NCBI GenBank assembly: GCA_022784645.1
Contig: JALFZG010000062.1
Coordinates: 1-64,000 of the forward strand
DNA length: 64,000 nucleotides
Source of the DNA: Bacteroidales bacterium
Lineage (GTDB): Bacteria > Bacteroidota > Bacteroidia > Bacteroidales > Paludibacteraceae
Direction: 5' to 3'
Shown here: positions 1 through 40,640 of the stretch, piece by piece
Position numbering within the stretch: the stretch's first letter is position 1
How the letters are laid out: each line of letters begins with the position of its first letter
The notes under the pieces: model-generated
The model's database searches: none
What the model was told of the DNA's origin: nothing
Seen by the model: only the letters and a program-made list of their open reading frames with translations
Position numbers and translations under genes: made by a program

Positions 1-320
1 TATAAATATATATATAAAGGAGAGAATCTAATGAGGGTGGTACCCTTAATTTTTTTAACTGTAATACTGTAATCTGTAATATTTTGCTATTTATACCAAT
101 CCTAAATCGGCTTTAGCATTGGCCAGTTCGGTGAAGATCTCGTTGGCGAATGCGTGCGGATTGAAGTAGCGCGTGAGCTCTACCTTACGCATATACACCA
201 TCAGACGACCATCCGGCGTGAGGTTGATGTTCAGCCGTTTTTCCCACGCCGTTTCACAAGTCAGGGGACAACTGCCCCACAAGTCAGGGGACAACCCATT
301 GCCATGTGCGATTTTTGTAG

Positions 321-540: not shown

Positions 541-1092
541 TTGATTATGGGTATTGTTCATGGTAATTGGCTCACCGGCACGCACAGTGGCCGCGCCTGC
601 AGGCACGAGAATGTGTACACTCGCGTCAACAAAAAGACCGGGCAGTGCTACTCGGCTCAACTCTGTAACCCCAACCCCTATCGCAACGAGAAGCAGAAGA
701 AGGTCACCACCGCTTTCGCGGTTATCTCCGCAGCTATCTCTGCTTGGATCGCTACCGAGAAGGCGAAGTCCGCTCCGAGCGATGACTTCAAGAAGGTGAA
801 GCTCGCCTTCGACCGCCAGACTCGTTACTCCTCTCTCCGTGGTATGATGATGGCGAAGGGTATGTACAAGGTGGTTGATGGTGCGGTAGTGGTTGACCCC
901 AACGCCAACACCTCTTTCGCCACTGTCTCGGCATCCGTAAAGCTCCCTGATGACTCTGCTAACAGCGACAGCGCACCGGCAGCAGGTGGCAGCGGCAGCG
1001 ACAGCAGCGATAGCGCAACTTCGGGCTCGCAGACTGGCGGCTCTGACAGCGGCAGCGGCGGTAGCTCTGATGGCGACGGCGGATTCGAGTAA
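541..1092 (+). CDS. Hypothetical protein with Ser/Gly/Asp-rich C-terminal tail (likely ATG start at 547)
   Basis: 183-aa ORF, upstream purine-rich GGAGGG, Cys/Arg-rich N-term and low-complexity tail; family not recognised. Confidence 0.55.
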   Translation: MIMGIVHGNWLTGTHSGRACRHENVYTRVNKKTGQCYSAQLCNPNPYRNEKQKKVTTAFAVISAAISAWIATEKAKSAPSDDFKKVKLAFDRQTRYSSLRGMMMAKGMYKVVDGAVVVDPNANTSFATVSASVKLPDDSANSDSAPAAGGSGSDSSDSATSGSQTGGSDSGSGGSSDGDGGFE

Positions 1093-1288
1093 TCCGTATG
1101 CGCCAAGGCGCTTAAGCGCTAAAGAGCGGGCCAGAAGTCTGCGGTGTTCCAGGGGGAGCGGAGCGGCGGATGGAGGACGGAGATAATATCTCCTGCCAAC
1201 AAACAATACGAGAATCGCAGCAAGCTGCTGCGATATCACTACAAGCGCGCAGCGAAGCGAACGTTACAAACAGTGCAGTAACGTTTGC

Positions 1289-1335
1289 AAAACGTTACAA
1301 ACGTTACAAACGTTACACATTTTAGAGTAAGGATA
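1289..1335 (+). repeat. GTTACAAAC (9-bp) repeat block, 47-bp copy ending ACATTTTAGAGTAAGGATA
   Basis: Identical to part of the right arm of the locus at 40495-40555. Confidence 0.85.
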
Positions 1336-1431
1336 TGGCGCTGCGCGCAGTTCCATTTGCGCTTTGCGCGTTCCAGACGCCTGCGGCTGTTCCAGATGAA
1401 AAATCTTCTTTCTTATTACCGCTAAACGATG

Positions 1432-1468
1432 ACAAAAAAGCGCTCCTTGTCATCACGACAGGGAGCGC
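1432..1468 (-). terminator. Intrinsic terminator downstream of the sus operon
   Basis: Hairpin GAGCGCTCC..GGAGCGC followed by T6 on minus strand. Confidence 0.7.
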
Positions 1469-1588
1469 TCATTGCCTTTCGGCTTATTTACTTTATTATT
1501 CCAAGAAACAGCTTTACAATGCAAAATCAAACTTCATCTACATTGTAAGCAAATTAGATGAATAACCAAAATCTATGTTAGTTATTTA

Positions 1589-3766
1589 CTACATTCGTTG
1601 CCCAAGAGCATTATAAAAACAACCGTTTTTCTCAATAATCAGCATTCCATTCTTCATTCGTTTTTGGGTAGAAACAGAATGGGTATTGCTAATGGATGTT
1701 TCGGCTGGACGGGTAATAATCTTCATGTTTACATTATCTATACCGAAAGATGGTGCTGAGGCGCAGTTGTCGCCAGATGAAACAGAGATCATCCAGCAAA
1801 GAAACAAATCCTTTCCAGCAGCCAAATTGCACGGCATACTACCACTAATAGTGGTCGTTTGAGCCGGAACAACGGCATAACCGGCCGTTGCAGATTCGGC
1901 CGCGTATAGCATCTTGAAATCATCACCTGCGCTGTTCCACACATAACCATTATTACTCCAATAGAGTTGGATAGTAAACCCCGCAGCATTGCTGCCTGAA
2001 CGGTATTTCTCGATATCGTACATCAGCTCAATGCCTACTATATCTTGAGCTGATTTGTTTTCTATATGTGCCATGAGATTGATGGTTCTCGTACCATTTG
2101 CAACGCCGGTAGTCATACCACCGATGGCTCGATCGGTAGAACCCGTAGCCCCAAGATTCCAAATACCATTGTAAGCATTGGAAGCCAAACTCTGACCACC
2201 GATATAGGTAGCAGTATCTACAGCCGCAGCATAACTACCAATCGTTCGTGGACCGGTTGTGTTGCGCTCTATTCGCCATCCTTCCGGAAGGATAGACCCT
2301 CTCTTTATACCCGTCTTGGCATCCTGAGAGGGGTCAACATCATCCCCTCCGAGGCTATCAAAATCCTGAAAATAAGTAGTGTCGGTTTCAGTGAAGACAA
2401 TAGCCGGAAAATCAACAGTCTGCGTAATGGCTTCTCCAGCATTTACAAGTGACTTATACACCACTCCATCATACATTGCTTCTACTTGATACGTTCCTGC
2501 GTTGAGAGCAGTGAGAATGCTATCGGTCATGGAGCCATTATCAGCAGAATAAGAGGCAGCCGTAAGCACTCCGGCGCTCATCCCATTCGTATCCAGTTGA
2601 TGAAGCGAAAAACGAATGGTATGTGCATGATTATCCACTACCTGCTCAAAATGCTGCCACGCATACGAAGCATACCCACGTATGACAGCGGCATCGGCAG
2701 CCGGCAAAGTACTTGGAGCCCAAGTGATGGTGATGGGATCAACGCCAAAAATCGTAGCATATTCCAAGCAGCAAGCGGCATACGTAGCTTTAGTGGTAGG
2801 ATGACGATCGTCTTTATACCATGTAGAGAGAATAGTAGCATCTTGCTCTGAGGCGTATTGATAACATGGCCCTACGGGACATAGCACCACGCCCAACTCT
2901 TGCGCCACTTGAAGATAATTCTGCAAGAAGATTTGGTTAAATTCAGCAAACGGATCGGTGTTATACGCCCAATTGATAGGAAGAATAATCACTACATTCG
3001 GATTGGGGCAATTTTCTCTGATATATTTCACCCAATCACAAACAGACTGACGAAAACCAGCGAAGTTCGTACGCGGTTTAGCAGTCTGCTCTTGGAGAAT
3101 GATATGCGTCCATGCTTCCGTTCGTACCAACATTCGCGCAGAAGGGGTGCCGGCATCGGTGAGTCCTTCGCCCTCATCATAGTGATATTGGAGCGATTTG
3201 CCCAAATTGGTATGGGCAGTCCATTGTGCCGTTTTGCCCATGGCCAGCGCCATCTGATTGAAGATATCATCTTGCCATTCTTGCTCATAATGAATCAGCG
3301 AGTTGTTCATAGAGAGCACTTTTATTTCCTCCGGTTGGCTAGTGAGCAACGTGGCACTTTGCGGCCAAAGGGCAATGCCGGCCAACTCAATAGGTGCATC
3401 TGGCGCTTTCTCGATTAGCACCGAGGGAATAGCAGGATTAAACGTTATCTTTTTACAGATTGTTGTTTCAGCCACAGTCAGATTGCTATTCGAACCCGAT
3501 ACGAGGGTGTAAGCCACTCCAGGGGTAACGAGCCCGCCATCGGCCGCCGCGCCGTAATTGCAAGCCGCTGACCAATTAGCATCGGCAATCTTAAATTGCC
3601 CCGTAAGGGTATAATTCTCTATGGTGTAAGTACCATCAGATTGTAGGGTCATTTCGTCAGCGGGAGCCGCCCCCCAACTGTTGTGTGCACCGCGTACAAA
3701 CACGCCTTGAGCCACTGCACCCAATGCAGACAGCAACCATGCACAAATAAATAATAGTTTCTTCAT
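1589..3766 (-). CDS. Secreted multidomain protein: N-terminal SusE/F-like starch-binding-type module, SGNH/DUF4886-like hydrolase, C-terminal sorting-like tail
   Basis: Signal peptide; VFVRGAHNSWG.. module; VLSMNNSL and DDRHPT SGNH-like motifs; C-term MLIIEKNGCFYNALGQRM. Confidence 0.65.
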   Translation of the reverse strand: MKKLLFICAWLLSALGAVAQGVFVRGAHNSWGAAPADEMTLQSDGTYTIENYTLTGQFKIADANWSAACNYGAAADGGLVTPGVAYTLVSGSNSNLTVAETTICKKITFNPAIPSVLIEKAPDAPIELAGIALWPQSATLLTSQPEEIKVLSMNNSLIHYEQEWQDDIFNQMALAMGKTAQWTAHTNLGKSLQYHYDEGEGLTDAGTPSARMLVRTEAWTHIILQEQTAKPRTNFAGFRQSVCDWVKYIRENCPNPNVVIILPINWAYNTDPFAEFNQIFLQNYLQVAQELGVVLCPVGPCYQYASEQDATILSTWYKDDRHPTTKATYAACCLEYATIFGVDPITITWAPSTLPAADAAVIRGYASYAWQHFEQVVDNHAHTIRFSLHQLDTNGMSAGVLTAASYSADNGSMTDSILTALNAGTYQVEAMYDGVVYKSLVNAGEAITQTVDFPAIVFTETDTTYFQDFDSLGGDDVDPSQDAKTGIKRGSILPEGWRIERNTTGPRTIGSYAAAVDTATYIGGQSLASNAYNGIWNLGATGSTDRAIGGMTTGVANGTRTINLMAHIENKSAQDIVGIELMYDIEKYRSGSNAAGFTIQLYWSNNGYVWNSAGDDFKMLYAAESATAGYAVVPAQTTTISGSMPCNLAAGKDLFLCWMISVSSGDNCASAPSFGIDNVNMKIITRPAETSISNTHSVSTQKRMKNGMLIIEKNGCFYNALGQRM

Positions 3767-3795
3767 ATTGGTATATTTTCTATTTATGGGAGAAG

Positions 3796-5130
3796 TTAGA
3801 GAGTCATATATACTTTATACTCATACGGCTGGAGGGGAAGCACTTTGGGCGTAAGGACGGAATCACCCGTGAGCGCATCGATGCAGTTATAACGTTGCCA
3901 AAGCATCGGGAGAGTTACTTCCTGATTCACACCTGATACATTTACCACCACCAGCGCTTTCTTTTCGCCTTGCGAAAACGTGAACATACCTACTCGTTCG
4001 GTGCTGAAATCCGTACGCGTTCCATAGCGCGCTTCGGCCGTGAGCTGGTAGGCTCGCATCAAACTACAATATGCTTCAAAAACGGCATTATCGCTCGCTG
4101 AAGCACTATCTTTGATAGACGGGAAAGAAAGCAGATGATGGTTGAAGAAATTGATTTGCCCCATCTCGCCTATCTCCTGTGAAGAATAAATCATCGGAAC
4201 GCCCTCGAGGAAAAACGTCAGACAGCTGGCAGCCAGTTCACCCTGCGCGGACACAAACCACCGCGAGGGCGCATTCTCACTGGCAGCATCATGACTGGTC
4301 ACGTTGCGCAAACGCTGCTTCCCTTCGGGGGTAGCGCTCATCTCGCGTTCGCTGGTCGCATAAAGCGCTTGTAAACTCTGCGAGTAGATTTTCTGTACAG
4401 CACCTAAGTAATCCCAACTGTAGAGCCAGTCGAAACCGCTACCATAGTAATCCACCTTACTCGTTTCTGCCAGCATCACCGCATTGGGTTTGACCGAACG
4501 GATAGCGCGGATAGCCTCTGCCCAATAATCAGCAGGAACACCATGCGCATAATCACAGCGAAAACCATCGATATCGGCTTCGCGCATCCAATAGAGGAGC
4601 GCCTCTGTCATGGCATCACGCACAGCCGGTTGCTCATAGTTGAGCGGCACCACATCTTTCCAGTTCACTTCATCGGCCACGGGCGAGGTGTACCATTCGG
4701 GGTGCTGCTCATACCAGGCGTTATCCCAAGCCGTATGGTTTGCAACCCAATCGAGAATAACGAGCATGCCATTCTCATGGCAGGTTTTAACGAGCGAACG
4801 CAAATCATCAATAGTGCCGAACGCAGGGTCAACTACGAAGTAATCTTTTACGCAGTAAGGCGAATTGACGGTCTTGACTGTTCCTCTCGGGTGAATAGGC
4901 ATCAACCATAGCACATTTACTTGCATGCGCCGAAGTGCGGGTACATAGTTTTCTATTGCCTGAAAAGCGTTGGTTTGCGCAAACAGTCGCTCGTTGCATT
5001 CATATACCACATAGGTATTGGCTTTATTGTAAAGGGTAGGCTCATCGCCTTCGATGGGTTTATCTTTCGGCTCGCAGGCAGAAAGCATACCCGATAAGCA
5101 ACAGGCGATCAGCAGAAACAGTTTTTTCAT
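3796..5130 (-). CDS. Alpha-amylase family (GH13) lipoprotein
   Basis: Lipobox LSAC; VNVLWLMPIHP, DWVANHTA, GFRCDYA, LAETS, SHD GH13 motifs. Confidence 0.9.
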   Translation of the reverse strand: MKKLFLLIACCLSGMLSACEPKDKPIEGDEPTLYNKANTYVVYECNERLFAQTNAFQAIENYVPALRRMQVNVLWLMPIHPRGTVKTVNSPYCVKDYFVVDPAFGTIDDLRSLVKTCHENGMLVILDWVANHTAWDNAWYEQHPEWYTSPVADEVNWKDVVPLNYEQPAVRDAMTEALLYWMREADIDGFRCDYAHGVPADYWAEAIRAIRSVKPNAVMLAETSKVDYYGSGFDWLYSWDYLGAVQKIYSQSLQALYATSEREMSATPEGKQRLRNVTSHDAASENAPSRWFVSAQGELAASCLTFFLEGVPMIYSSQEIGEMGQINFFNHHLLSFPSIKDSASASDNAVFEAYCSLMRAYQLTAEARYGTRTDFSTERVGMFTFSQGEKKALVVVNVSGVNQEVTLPMLWQRYNCIDALTGDSVLTPKVLPLQPYEYKVYMTL

Positions 5131-5206
5131 GATGAATAGTTTTGCCCCCTCTCGGAAAAGAGAGGGAGCTATTAATTATGGGGGGAGTTAGTAATAATCA
5201 GCAGAA

Positions 5207-6814
5207 TTATTTTTTACGAAGTCCCATCGGGGTAGGAACGAGTTCGGAAGTAGCCGTATCGGTAACGCTAAGATAATAGATGGTTTGCTGCGAAGTAGCC
5301 GTTAGGGCGATAGCATCGTATTGCTCTGTACCGAGATCACCGGCTTTGTTATTGATAATGAGGTTGAAATTATCACCTACTAAGCAGGGGATGGTATATG
5401 CATACATCTGTTGGCCAAAGAACATCACCTTCTGCCACTCACGGATATTGCTTCCAGGCCACCCGCCGAAGCACTCAAATGCGCCCCAAGCATATACTGA
5501 AAGAATCTGCTCGCCGGTAGCCAACGTCTCAGTAGCATCAATTATATAAAGCGTCAACATCGCAGAATCAGGCACCACCGGTTCAGGGTCTTCCGTATCA
5601 GAACCGCCTTCATTGCCGCCAGATGAACTACCGCCACCAAAATCATATGTATTGGGGTCGTCAATCTTAATGGCATCTTCTTTATTGCCCGTAGCGATAT
5701 AATAATGCTCAATACCATCAGCAAAAGTCACATTGGCATCGTTGGCTTGATTGCCTGCACCATTATCATTGAAAATCATGTTCTCATTTTTGCCATTATT
5801 GGCAGCACCCATGAGGAAATAATACCAATGCAAACCGGCAAAATCAAACTCGCCATCGGCAACCAGTCCGGGCCATCCAGCCGTCTCACCACCATCGCGA
5901 TCGAGGTTATTGACATCGCCCCACATGTAGAGTGTCATAGCGCCCCAACCGGCTTTGTCAGCTACGAACACGATATCCTGTCCGTCGTGGGCAATCGTTG
6001 GGAACTTCTCCACAGTAGGCCCGCTCCAATCGCCTTCACCAATTGCCACTTCTTTCAGTGCCATATTCACGGTGATGACATACGTGCCTTTGGCGATGGT
6101 TACACAGGGCTCGCCTTCGTTTACGAGCGTCACTACGCTGCCTTCTACGAGCAGATCGTTAGCAGCACCACCCCAGCGGTTAGCGTTGAAATCCGCCCAT
6201 TCACCTTTAGCGGTAGAGAATGCAAAATAGGAGGTCTCTTCCGTAAAAGTCAATTCAGCGCGGAAGATATCCGTACCCACCATCTCCAACTCTATCGGTG
6301 CAGCAGGATCCCAACTGCTACCCTCAATATTGCCGGTGACGTAGAGGTGTTCGTATTCGCCCGGGACGATGGGCTCATCTTCACCCTCCAAACCGGCCCA
6401 GCGGCTCAACGTAAGGATGTAGCGTTCACCCACTTTCGCATCCAGCGTACGCAAGTCGCTGCCGCGAAGCACTTCATAGCCCTGCTTCATGTTGAAGAAA
6501 CGGAATCCGTCAGCAAGCGTCTTGCCCCCTACGAAATCTTCGGGGAAGAGGTAAATACCGAATTTAATATTCGTTTCCTCATGCTTGACAAGCATGTTGT
6601 TTGCGCTGATTTTGTTATCGCAGAAATCGCCTACTACATATATCTCGTCCGTAGGTGAGGTGCTCGATGGTACGACTACCTCAAGGAGGATGGCATTCGC
6701 CCTTGTTTCAAAGTGAATGTTCTCATATTCAAACACCAACTCTTCCTGTTTGCATCCCATGAAGAACACCGGGAGCATCATCAATATGCTAAATAATATC
6801 TTTTTCATAATCAA
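5207..6814 (-). CDS. SusE/SusF-like outer-membrane starch-binding lipoprotein
   Basis: Lipoprotein signal; repeated CBM-like modules (LYMWGD..GWPG, YAWGAFECFGGWPG); position after susD. Confidence 0.8.
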   Translation of the reverse strand: MIMKKILFSILMMLPVFFMGCKQEELVFEYENIHFETRANAILLEVVVPSSTSPTDEIYVVGDFCDNKISANNMLVKHEETNIKFGIYLFPEDFVGGKTLADGFRFFNMKQGYEVLRGSDLRTLDAKVGERYILTLSRWAGLEGEDEPIVPGEYEHLYVTGNIEGSSWDPAAPIELEMVGTDIFRAELTFTEETSYFAFSTAKGEWADFNANRWGGAANDLLVEGSVVTLVNEGEPCVTIAKGTYVITVNMALKEVAIGEGDWSGPTVEKFPTIAHDGQDIVFVADKAGWGAMTLYMWGDVNNLDRDGGETAGWPGLVADGEFDFAGLHWYYFLMGAANNGKNENMIFNDNGAGNQANDANVTFADGIEHYYIATGNKEDAIKIDDPNTYDFGGGSSSGGNEGGSDTEDPEPVVPDSAMLTLYIIDATETLATGEQILSVYAWGAFECFGGWPGSNIREWQKVMFFGQQMYAYTIPCLVGDNFNLIINNKAGDLGTEQYDAIALTATSQQTIYYLSVTDTATSELVPTPMGLRKK

Positions 6815-11995: not shown

Positions 11996-13630
11996 CTAAT
12001 CCTTATAGCTGGATATCTGCATGACTGCTTCCATGAAGCAATCGTTGCTTAAATCCGAGCGGTTTTTGATTTTCGTCTTATAGGTGTAGATGGTATTTAC
12101 GCTATAATCCAAAATCTGCGCAATCACCTCGTTGTGGGTGATGCCCAAGCGCATGAGGGCGAAGATGCGCAAGTCCGTATTCAGCAGCTCCCCCTCTTTG
12201 AGCACAATCTGCTCGTTTTCGCGTAGGAGCTGATTAAACTGGCTGACGAAGTTCGGGAAAATCTTCAGAAACATCTCATCAAAGCGCTTATCGAACTCCT
12301 CGCGCTTGCGGTGCACATCCATACTCTTGGGGATGTTCAACCAGTCCTCGCTCTTATGCTGCGCTGCTTGCTTACGTACAAACTGCTGAAGGCGGTCCAT
12401 ATCGTTGATATAATCCGACTGCCAACTAAGCAGATTGCCCAGATACTCTTCTTTGATGCGATTGGCTTCCTTCAGGTTTTGGTTGGTTTGACTGATGATC
12501 TCTCGCGCTTGCTGAAGCTTATGATTGCGCTGACGCAGCAGTCGCAAGATGCATAAGCATATTACCAAAAGCACTACAATCACCACCGCTAATGCAATGA
12601 TCTTCTTATGTTGCGTCTCCAGCTGATGCGCATTCTCCTGCTCGATGATGGGCAGAATCTGCGAGATCTCCACCTGCCGGTGGCGCGCATTATAGAAGAT
12701 AGCATCGTCTTGCGCAGCTCTAATACACAGTGCCGCATCGCGCAGGTTGCCGTTATGATGTAGGATCTCGGCCACATTGCGCATGGCAATGGCTTCTTTT
12801 GTGCTGCTCTCGATATCCTTAATGGCCGCCATGATATTATAGCGTAGCTGCTCATCTAGACGACCTAACTGAAGTTGGAGAAAAGCGATAGTAGAATATA
12901 CGACAGCCAAATCATGATTAGTAATACGACTGTCTTCTATAGCAATCTGAAACCGCTTGATGGCGCGGTCATAGGCGCTCTCATGCAAATCCAACAATGC
13001 CAACGCATTCCAATAATAGAGTGTATCTTCTTGAGTATAATAAGTCAGAGCTTCGCGCATCAAGTCATTGCCGCGTTCGTTATAATGATGAGTTAAGCCT
13101 ATCTGGTCGTATGATGCCAAATCATACATCAGTCGGGCAAACGTGATGCAATAATCGGCTTTCACCCGCACCGACACCCCAGTCGTATCCATGTCTTCAA
13201 ACAAGTCCACGCCTTCTGTGAAAAGACCGGCACTCAGATAGCAGAACCCCTGCTGCACCTGCGCATCTACAATCTTATCCTTATCGCCCAAACGGACTGC
13301 CTCCGCTTGCAGTTGCTCTACGCACGCGTATGCGCGGTCAAAATTATATGACTTGTATTCATCAAAAAGATCACGCAACACGCCATAGCGGTCATAGCTT
13401 GTGAGGAGTTCCGATTCAAGTATAGCAATGCGATGCTCTTTTTCTTGGTCAAATTGGGATTTGCGCTCGATATAAGTTTTCAGCAATGCAACCTCATCCT
13501 CTTCATCATACAGCGCTCTGCGCTTGCAACCAGCAAACATGCTGCTCACAATGCACAGACAAACAAGCAGCCTTATCGGCAGCAATATGTGCTTCATTGC
13601 CCCCATTCGACGGAGTATATTATTGTCCAT
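11996..13630 (-). CDS. DUF6377-like membrane-anchored TPR/coiled-coil regulator with C-terminal LuxR-type HTH
   Basis: Signal/lipobox, TPR-like region, TM helix, C-term DLRIFALMRLGITHNEVIAQILDYSVNTIYTYKTKIKNRS. Confidence 0.75.
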   Translation of the reverse strand: MDNNILRRMGAMKHILLPIRLLVCLCIVSSMFAGCKRRALYDEEDEVALLKTYIERKSQFDQEKEHRIAILESELLTSYDRYGVLRDLFDEYKSYNFDRAYACVEQLQAEAVRLGDKDKIVDAQVQQGFCYLSAGLFTEGVDLFEDMDTTGVSVRVKADYCITFARLMYDLASYDQIGLTHHYNERGNDLMREALTYYTQEDTLYYWNALALLDLHESAYDRAIKRFQIAIEDSRITNHDLAVVYSTIAFLQLQLGRLDEQLRYNIMAAIKDIESSTKEAIAMRNVAEILHHNGNLRDAALCIRAAQDDAIFYNARHRQVEISQILPIIEQENAHQLETQHKKIIALAVVIVVLLVICLCILRLLRQRNHKLQQAREIISQTNQNLKEANRIKEEYLGNLLSWQSDYINDMDRLQQFVRKQAAQHKSEDWLNIPKSMDVHRKREEFDKRFDEMFLKIFPNFVSQFNQLLRENEQIVLKEGELLNTDLRIFALMRLGITHNEVIAQILDYSVNTIYTYKTKIKNRSDLSNDCFMEAVMQISSYKD

Positions 13631-39466: not shown

Positions 39467-39506
39467 CTATATAAATTTGTTTTTTCCTGAAAAACATAGA
39501 CAACCA

Positions 39507-40548
39507 TACTCTAAAATGTGTAACGTTTGTAACGTTTGTAACGTTTTGACGTGTATGTCAATAAAGAACAAAATAGACAGGTTGTTTTTTTAAGAACAAA
39601 ATTTTACAAAATTTTACAAAATTACTCGTTATATTCAAAAAAAATCTTGTTTAATCTTGAATAATCTTGTTTTTTAAAAGAACAAAATTTCTCAAAATTT
39701 TTCAAAATTATTTCTCGTAACCAAAATTAATCTTGTTTAATAGGGCGTAGCCCGTTGAATAATAGAGCTTGCTCGTTGTTATTTTAAAACTCGACTTGCA
39801 TCTGCAGGAAACACCATGTGCGCTTGTTGACTACTCGTGTACGTGTGTGCGATGGTAACGCGATGAGAGTGCGATGAACGTGCGATGCGTCTCCGTTGGG
39901 GCCCCCAGAGTGCTATGCTCGAATGGGGAGAGGAGGAGATGCGGAGCGCTTAAAGTCTCTGACCCGGGAAGAGACTTTCGTTAGCGAAGCCATCTCCGAC
40001 GATTGCGGTGCAAAATTACTGCTAAAAATTGGATAAAAAAAAGGTAAAATGCACGAAATCCGAAAAAAATGCAATTAACTCTGTAAAAATACAGAGGAGT
40101 TGCATATTTACAAATATTTCGTGTTGTATTTTATGTCAGAACGTATTAGCATATTTGTCAAAACATTACAAACGTTACAAACGTTACACATTTTTGAGTC
40201 TCAGGCACGTGTGCGCATATAGTATAATATAATACTCCCCCCCTAAGAAATAACCCCCCAAATTTATCATTTAAACACATGGGAAAATGGCATATAAAAT
40301 ACCGAAAAGTAGGGAGTAAAGTGGTAAAAAGTAGGGGGTAATGGCTGAAAAAAGCATAGTTGATGATTCCTTACTCTCAAATGTGTAATGTTTGTAACGC
40401 TTGTAACGCTTCGTCAATTTTTTTAGGAAACCGTCTACTTTCTTAGGAAAAATAGTATTAACCTGTCTACTTTTTTTAGGAAAAGACAATGTTTTGACAT
40501 ACACGTCAAAACGTTACAAACGTTACAAACGTTACACATTTTAGAGTA
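39507..40548. mobile_element. Putative MITE-like / transposase-less unit bounded by 54-bp perfect inverted repeats
   Basis: 39507-39560 is the exact reverse complement of 40495-40548; inserted between zeta-toxin-like gene and phoH. Confidence 0.6.
39791..39887 (-). repeat. Dispersed repeat copy B (11-bp phased CATCGCAC iterons plus conserved flank)
   Basis: Near-identical to 345-441 in opposite orientation. Confidence 0.85.
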
Positions 40549-40640
40549 AGGATAACGTTACAAACAGGGAACGGAGTGAGCGTTACACTTTTTAGAGTAA
40601 GGGTACCCTGATTTTTACTCGAGATGCGCGTTGATTCAAC

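Follow-up and report, generated by a model that had tools for sequence, protein, structure and literature searches.

The window, the 64,000 nt of a Bacteroidales bacterium (Paludibacteraceae) analyzed here (GCA_022784645.1, contig JALFZG010000062.1, positions 1-64,000), harbors a unit of about 1.04 kb between a zeta-toxin-like gene and phoH. Four arrays of short direct repeats (iterons) lie in this unit in the order - + - +, namely, two perfect outer arms (L and R) and two diverged inner arrays (A and B). The initial annotation described perfect 54-bp inverted arms, diverged inner copies in this order, and an interior with neither a transposase nor any other convincing gene, and each of these points is borne out. 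Positions 39507 to 39560 are the exact reverse complement of 40495 to 40548; this 54-nt core lies within outer arms of 58 nt (39504-39561 and 40494-40551) that are 98% complementary, and a search for genes within 39507-40548 yielded no convincing one. The placement between the zeta-toxin-like gene and phoH holds on the left, where the flank consists of that gene (Pfam Zeta_toxin, E 1e-6) and its terminator, but needs amending on the right, where an extra degenerate end precedes the phoH flank (Table 1).

Every array is built of two GTTACAAAC iterons, then GTTACA(CAT), and lastly a conserved terminus, GAGTAAGG, which varies to GAGTATGG at the left arm and to GAGTCTCAGG in array A; the GTTACAAAC-type iterons of arrays A and B include one-base variants. 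With up to three mismatches allowed, GTTACAAACGTTACA matched the window 12 times against 1.4 expected, a count reached in 0 of 100 shuffles, and so the density of arrays is not due to chance. Relative to A (0), L is located at -687, B at +178, and R at +344. In gene-bearing copies of the same family, p183 lies on the same side of the control region as the CTCGACTTGCATCTGCAGGAAACACC and AATCCGAAAAAAATGCAATTAAC modules, while a promoter and a replication operon come after array B. The window unit lacks this gene body between its last module and R, with a deletion junction at about 40485-40495. At about 345-1332, the window also holds a second, partial member of the family, made up of an E module, the p183 gene, and an L-end array.

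Table 1. Features of the window unit, of the second copy in the window, and of the large protein of a sister copy
Feature	Position	Strand	Remark
p183 gene of second, partial copy	547-1089	+	181 aa by this start
L-end iteron array of second, partial copy	1294-1332	+	
Remnant of repeat TGTCTTTTCCTGAAAAAAGTAGACA	39480-39503	-	Abuts left end; TGTCTTTTCCTGAAAAAAGTAGACA stands at the end of an IS3-like element in a relative
L end iteron array	39507-39560	-	Iterons 39516-39542; conserved terminal CACATTTTAGAGTA points outward
AT-rich spacer	39585-39741	.	Two 71-nt direct repeats (80% identical), recurring in other copies
Conserved modules left of control region	39769-40140	+	CTCGACTTGCATCTGCAGGAAACACC and AATCCGAAAAAAATGCAATTAAC blocks
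Array A, control region	40155-40199	+	
AT-rich center between A and B	40200-40368	.	TATAGTATAATATAATACT; tandem GTAGGGAGTAA; origin-like by layout only
Array B, control region	40369-40417	-	
Two copies of GTCTACTTT..AGGAAAA	40413-40489	+	TAGTATTAACC spacer
R end iteron array	40495-40548	+	Iterons 40513-40539; conserved terminus GAGTAAGG points outward
Second, degenerate end	40552-40602	+	One iteron, GC-rich insert, GTTACACTTTTTAGAGTAAGG; unique phoH-side flank begins here
TGGAACGCGCGAAGCGC-type repeat in linker of 816-aa protein (L133)	residues about 203-275		

A dispersed family with gene-bearing and gene-less copies

The window unit is one member of a dispersed family. In its own genome (2.29 Mb, 90 contigs), 119 pieces match it by BLAST. 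Genome-wide, GTTACAAACGTTACA has 76 matches versus 1 for a reversed-pattern control, and the terminal motif TNACACATTTTWGAGTAAGG occurs 75 times versus 0 for its reversed control. The same motif was found in none of 60 other sampled genomes of the genus, and among 150 genomes of the family Paludibacteraceae, the triple iteron occurs in the own genome alone. The loci fetched list 40 clusters of type-1-like arrays, of which one, on contig C48, is spurious. A scan of species-representative genomes revealed the same element family in a sister MAG, SRR11551368_bin.19 (CAMGMU; G150), whose orthologous blocks are mostly 80 to 96% identical to those of the own genome. Conservation at this site with no copies elsewhere, the outcome that the initial annotation had set against a mobile unit, is thus not what is seen; the sister's zeta-phoH junction, moreover, carries other repeats. 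We do not uphold its reading of arm identity as a sign of recent movement. A sister arm is also 53/54 identical and other arms in the own genome are 51 to 52/54, and the identity is therefore weak evidence.

Gene-bearing copies have a common parent layout: L array, p64, p183, control region (arrays A and B), an operon running to a single-strand-binding (SSB)-like protein and a primase-helicase, and R array. Two sister copies, s79 (L133) and s53, provide the whole right half, with array A, array B, a promoter-like stretch, the operon, a hairpin, and array R. Their operon encodes p137, p156, a DUF3127 protein, p146, and a large protein of 816 aa (780 aa in s53). This large protein matches BT4734-like_N and DUF3987, both over Pfam cutoffs, as well as phage primase families (PHROGs) and, weakly, PrimPol_Db (E 1e-5, under the NCBIfam cutoff); for the DUF3127 protein, PHROGs gave a match to a phage single-strand-binding family (E 7e-8). 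The full-length partner encoding a VirE/DUF3987-type protein that the initial annotation had envisaged thus exists. Left halves contain p183 and the small p64 protein, reading toward the L end, and the gene beside p64 in two copies is presumably DUF5675-like. On contig C4 of the own genome, R, the hairpin, and the 3' part of the primase-helicase gene are joined to B, A, and p183. The own genome as a whole has about 8 pieces of the primase-helicase and 15 matches to p183; relatives have 0 to 2 and 0 to 3 matches, respectively.

Some copies contain other sequences. A GC-rich intergenic repeat of the TGGAACGCGCGAAGCGC type (C78:31017-31259 and C52:22523-22750) also occurs in frame in the primase-helicase linker. 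On C41 (L211), at positions 729-5838, the left arrays of an element with the AATTGCAT word are separated from its primase-helicase by extra genes, possibly cargo; one of these looks by eye like phage Gp37-like DUF5131, and others look like three-Cys-motif partner proteins. A 677-aa gene between arrays in C46 was dropped as cargo, being secreted-protein-like and syntenic in the sister. Among viral contigs and plasmids, no close relative of the primase-helicase was found; three unverified virome contigs (4 to 6 kb) show 24 to 29% identity over part of it.

Gene loss has produced the same form in both species. Sister copy s18 (L -580, B +179, R +350) and the window unit retain all arrays and no replication gene. 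In both, array B is followed by the same repeat, GTCTAC..AGGAAAAGACA, through which the deletions therefore probably ran. As the initial annotation suggested, the window unit is MITE-like: it is short, multicopy, bounded by inverted ends, and free of a transposase gene. Its parent, a protein-coding element with the same ends, encodes a primase-helicase and no transposase.

Iteron words and the C-terminal helix of the primase-helicase

Two iteron words are common in the own genome, GTTACAAAC (word 1) and GTTCACAAA (word 2; 64 matches). Within units, 54 of 57 typed array pairs have one word in common, the exceptions being in s79 and s39. The more divergent primase-helicases of C41 and C42/C90 go with AATTGCAT and CTTTCACA arrays, and GGTTACC arrays occur on C48, on C75, and at the sister's zeta locus. 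No intact word 1 primase-helicase was seen in the own assembly, where C36 runs off its contig and C4 is broken.

The primase-helicase gene is present in 12 of 41 genomes of the genus, the own genome included, with at most about one copy per relative. Most relatives that have it carry an array directly 3' of the stop codon, often with another word. For instance, three-copy arrays with several words shortly follow the stop codon in G173, G159, G182, G179, G157, G152, and G070. In G160, G156 (whose gene contains an internal stop), G166, and G184, no array was detected in the 460 bp that follow the gene, and none was found with the distant homologues G014 and G099; the rule of an array after the gene is therefore valid in one clade at most. 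In Rikenellaceae, Alistipes, Prevotella, and others, GTTACAAAC arrays stand in unrelated contexts, which ruled out a general tie of such arrays to this gene family in distant genomes.

When aligned, the primase-helicase C termini show a winged-helix-like pattern; its third helix, set between an invariant QS and an invariant RW, is hypervariable. The winged helix is predicted from sequence; single-sequence AlphaFold2 modeling of this region gave no usable fold (pLDDT 40), and a profile search of PDB structures for it gave no match. Between s79 (word 1) and s53 (word 2), 8 of the 11 predicted recognition-helix residues differ, compared with 9 of 727 residues outside the helix, the variable linker left out (Fisher P 1.8e-12). 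Word 1 is paired with its helix in C36, C4 (partial helix), s63, s79, and s23 (array split by an insert), and word 2 is paired with its helix in C32, C84, s22, s24, s39, and s53; the pairing held wherever both the helix and the array of a family copy could be read. Across 11 proteins, the AUC for predicting the word was 0.95 from helix identity (permutation P 0.00035) and 0.74 from helicase-core identity. The permutation takes sequences as exchangeable and independent word changes are few; therefore, the s79/s53 contrast weighs most.

Individual pairs of proteins illustrate the relationship. G173 and G182 share 95% of core residues and 27% of helix residues and differ in word, while C41 and G159, with 86% core and 91% helix identity, have the same word. 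Counting against the pairing, C90 and G182 have a common word despite only 36% helix identity. Two relatives examined afterwards are consistent with it: in G070, both the helix and the word (ATTAACA) are new, and G021 combines a G182-like helix with a degenerate TTTCCAC array that loosely matches the TTTCACA of G182. Because the word changes together with one helix of the primase-helicase across relatives, this protein is suggested to read the repeats. The iterons would then probably be binding sites of the element's own primase-helicase, a role that the initial annotation did not foresee.

Might the arrays instead serve regulation, as operators or as 3'-end sites to which p137 or a host factor binds, with no relation to replication? 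Arrays A and B are located at the operon promoter, p137 differs between word types in an HTH-like stretch, and the outer ends lie mostly behind genes, with the next outward gene presenting its 3' end in 31 of 38 cases (P 6e-5). However, the strongest co-variation is that of the primase-helicase, and both ends of the element, which are remote from the promoter, carry arrays as well. We regard a purely regulatory role as improbable.

We consider it likely that the window unit is a gene-less, non-autonomous derivative, acting in cis only, of an iteron replicon that is dispersed in the chromosome and whose initiator recognizes the iterons. Tandem iterons near an initiator gene are present in the family, and gene-bearing copies encode an initiator candidate with primase and helicase domains that the window unit lacks. 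Under this model, full-length relatives would supply the SSB-like protein and a primase-helicase composed of a BT4734-like archaeo-eukaryotic-type primase domain, a DUF3987 P-loop domain, and the predicted C-terminal winged helix. The C-terminal helix would bind an 8- to 9-bp iteron word at the ends (L and R) and around the AT-rich control region (A and B), with the stretch from A to B as the candidate origin. The window copy would have kept its four putative binding arrays while losing the genes, and it could be replicated or amplified only in trans, by a putative primase-helicase of matching word. Such replication in trans may also have driven the amplification of the family.

Sites and candidate routes of spread

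In the sister, the zeta side of the window site bears a GGTAACC-type array, and the phoH side bears a different repeat that ends at the same unique base region, GGTACCC; the junction has therefore turned over since the two species split. Likewise, C90 and s18 occupy one orthologous site with different repeat content in the two species. The own and sister assemblies both break in the repeats, in which many of their contigs end, and they yielded neither a clean empty site nor a target duplication. A repeat block also coincides with a rearrangement breakpoint between the species (sister C13, L141, versus own C2, L061). One insertion with an empty site in the sister, at 4978-5381 of C60 (L088), does not belong to this family and by eye is a truncated IS630-like element.

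No integrase was found in the family copies examined, and the only transposase candidates for the ends are RAYT-like and IS3-like. An IS3-family transposase could have moved a MITE-type unit in trans, with the TGTCTTTTCCTGAAAAAAGTAGACA flanks as recognized ends and the iteron element as cargo. TGTCTTTTCCTGAAAAAAGTAGACA directly abuts many ends, repeats related to it occur genus-wide, and in the relative G179 it stands at the end of an element; the first ORF of that element looks by eye like IS3 orfA. Other ends, however, abut different sequences (TATGGCGCTGCGCG... and ATAACGTTACAAAC...), and no direct target duplication is seen at C80 and C46, where both outer ends are readable. Also, such movement explains neither the co-variation of word and helix nor the arrays beside the primase-helicase genes of relatives, and we find it unlikely as an account of the unit. 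In G179 (L315, G179:C58), IS3-like ORFs at 958-1992 stand beside TGTCTTATCCTGAAAAAAGTAGACA ends, and this end motif is scattered in the own genome and the genus.

It is improbable that the unit is a REP/BIME-like element that owes its spread to a REP-associated tyrosine (HUH) transposase. The C84 copy does contain a RAYT-like gene (NF047646, E 3.5e-6; Y1_Tnp, E 0.016), which replaces most of the operon and has left remnants in the C78 and C80 copies, and RAYT subclass 2.6 of Bacteroidetes offers a precedent for repeated atypical structures on the flanks of such genes (PMC6006769). Nevertheless, these scores are under the curated cutoffs, the gene or its remnants are restricted to C84-type copies, and no RAYT lies between A and R in s79 or s53. 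Moreover, the arrays are direct iterons, and the GTAG- or CGTC-tagged palindromes expected beside a RAYT gene were not found. Two more RAYT-like genes are located on own contig C14 (L215), at 2530-4044 (504 aa) and 12270-13424 (384 aa); one of them contains long internal repeats.

For the replicon-derived unit that we favor, candidate routes of spread thus include IS3-type ends, RAYT, and replication-based reinsertion. A broader proposal, which we put forward tentatively as a long shot, is that each element type has its own replication address, consisting of the hypervariable helix and its word. Types would then resemble incompatibility groups, and gene-less copies would be cis-only parasites of the matching initiator, spreading in the chromosome by a replication-based, transposase-free route.

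Relation to known systems

BT4734-like/DUF3987 proteins recur in this genus and, within the family, in some further genera. A full-text literature search, with most subscription journals outside its scope, returned no paper pairing BT4734 and Bacteroides, and the cis sites and role of these proteins seem undescribed in the literature searched. We see the co-variation as the most valuable part of this work; it makes the function of a poorly characterized protein family directly and cheaply testable, and a candidate helix-to-word code could let the origins of such elements be predicted from protein sequence. The family also offers a case of replicon parasites, putative binding sites without genes, with dozens of copies in one lineage and none in relatives.

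Several known systems share parts of this organization. The alpha protein of satellite phage P4, with ori/crr, combines primase, helicase, and origin-binding domains in one protein that acts on short iterons. The likeness lies in a single protein with primase, helicase, and putative origin-binding parts together with short iterons; P4 differs in its primase and helicase families and in its phage dependence, which is no established feature here.

In a survey of archaeo-eukaryotic primases (AEPs), BT4734-like appears as an AEP family outside all clades, DUF3987 is predicted to act as a helicase, and a C-terminal WH is put forward for origin recognition in sister families; iterons are nowhere mentioned in its text (PMC5862659). 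PrimPol-PV1/BT4734-like replicons resemble the present elements in fusing a primase domain to a DUF3987-type ATPase within integrated mobile elements, whereas here there are an iteron partner with helix-word co-variation, a family at dozens of ends, and gene-less copies (PMC5862659).

In plasmid pRN1, the origin is directly downstream of the gene for the replication protein orf904 (PMC4234260), comparable to the putative origin sites downstream of the primase-helicase gene, although pRN1 is an archaeal, free plasmid with a stem-loop. The PLE satellites of Vibrio cholerae are integrated elements whose initiator acts on their own iterons (PMC7145576). They share integration, their own iterons, and a (here putative) initiator with the present family, but their initiator is of the RepA_N type, without primase or helicase, and they possess a large serine recombinase. 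Finally, the gene-less form has a counterpart in another Bacteroidales species, Porphyromonas gingivalis, whose BrickBuilt MITEs are intergenic, multicopy units with tandem repeats within inverted ends (PMC4596501); in contrast to the iterons, their repeat is a 23-nt minisatellite, and the abstract of that report mentions no linked primase-helicase parent like that of the present family.
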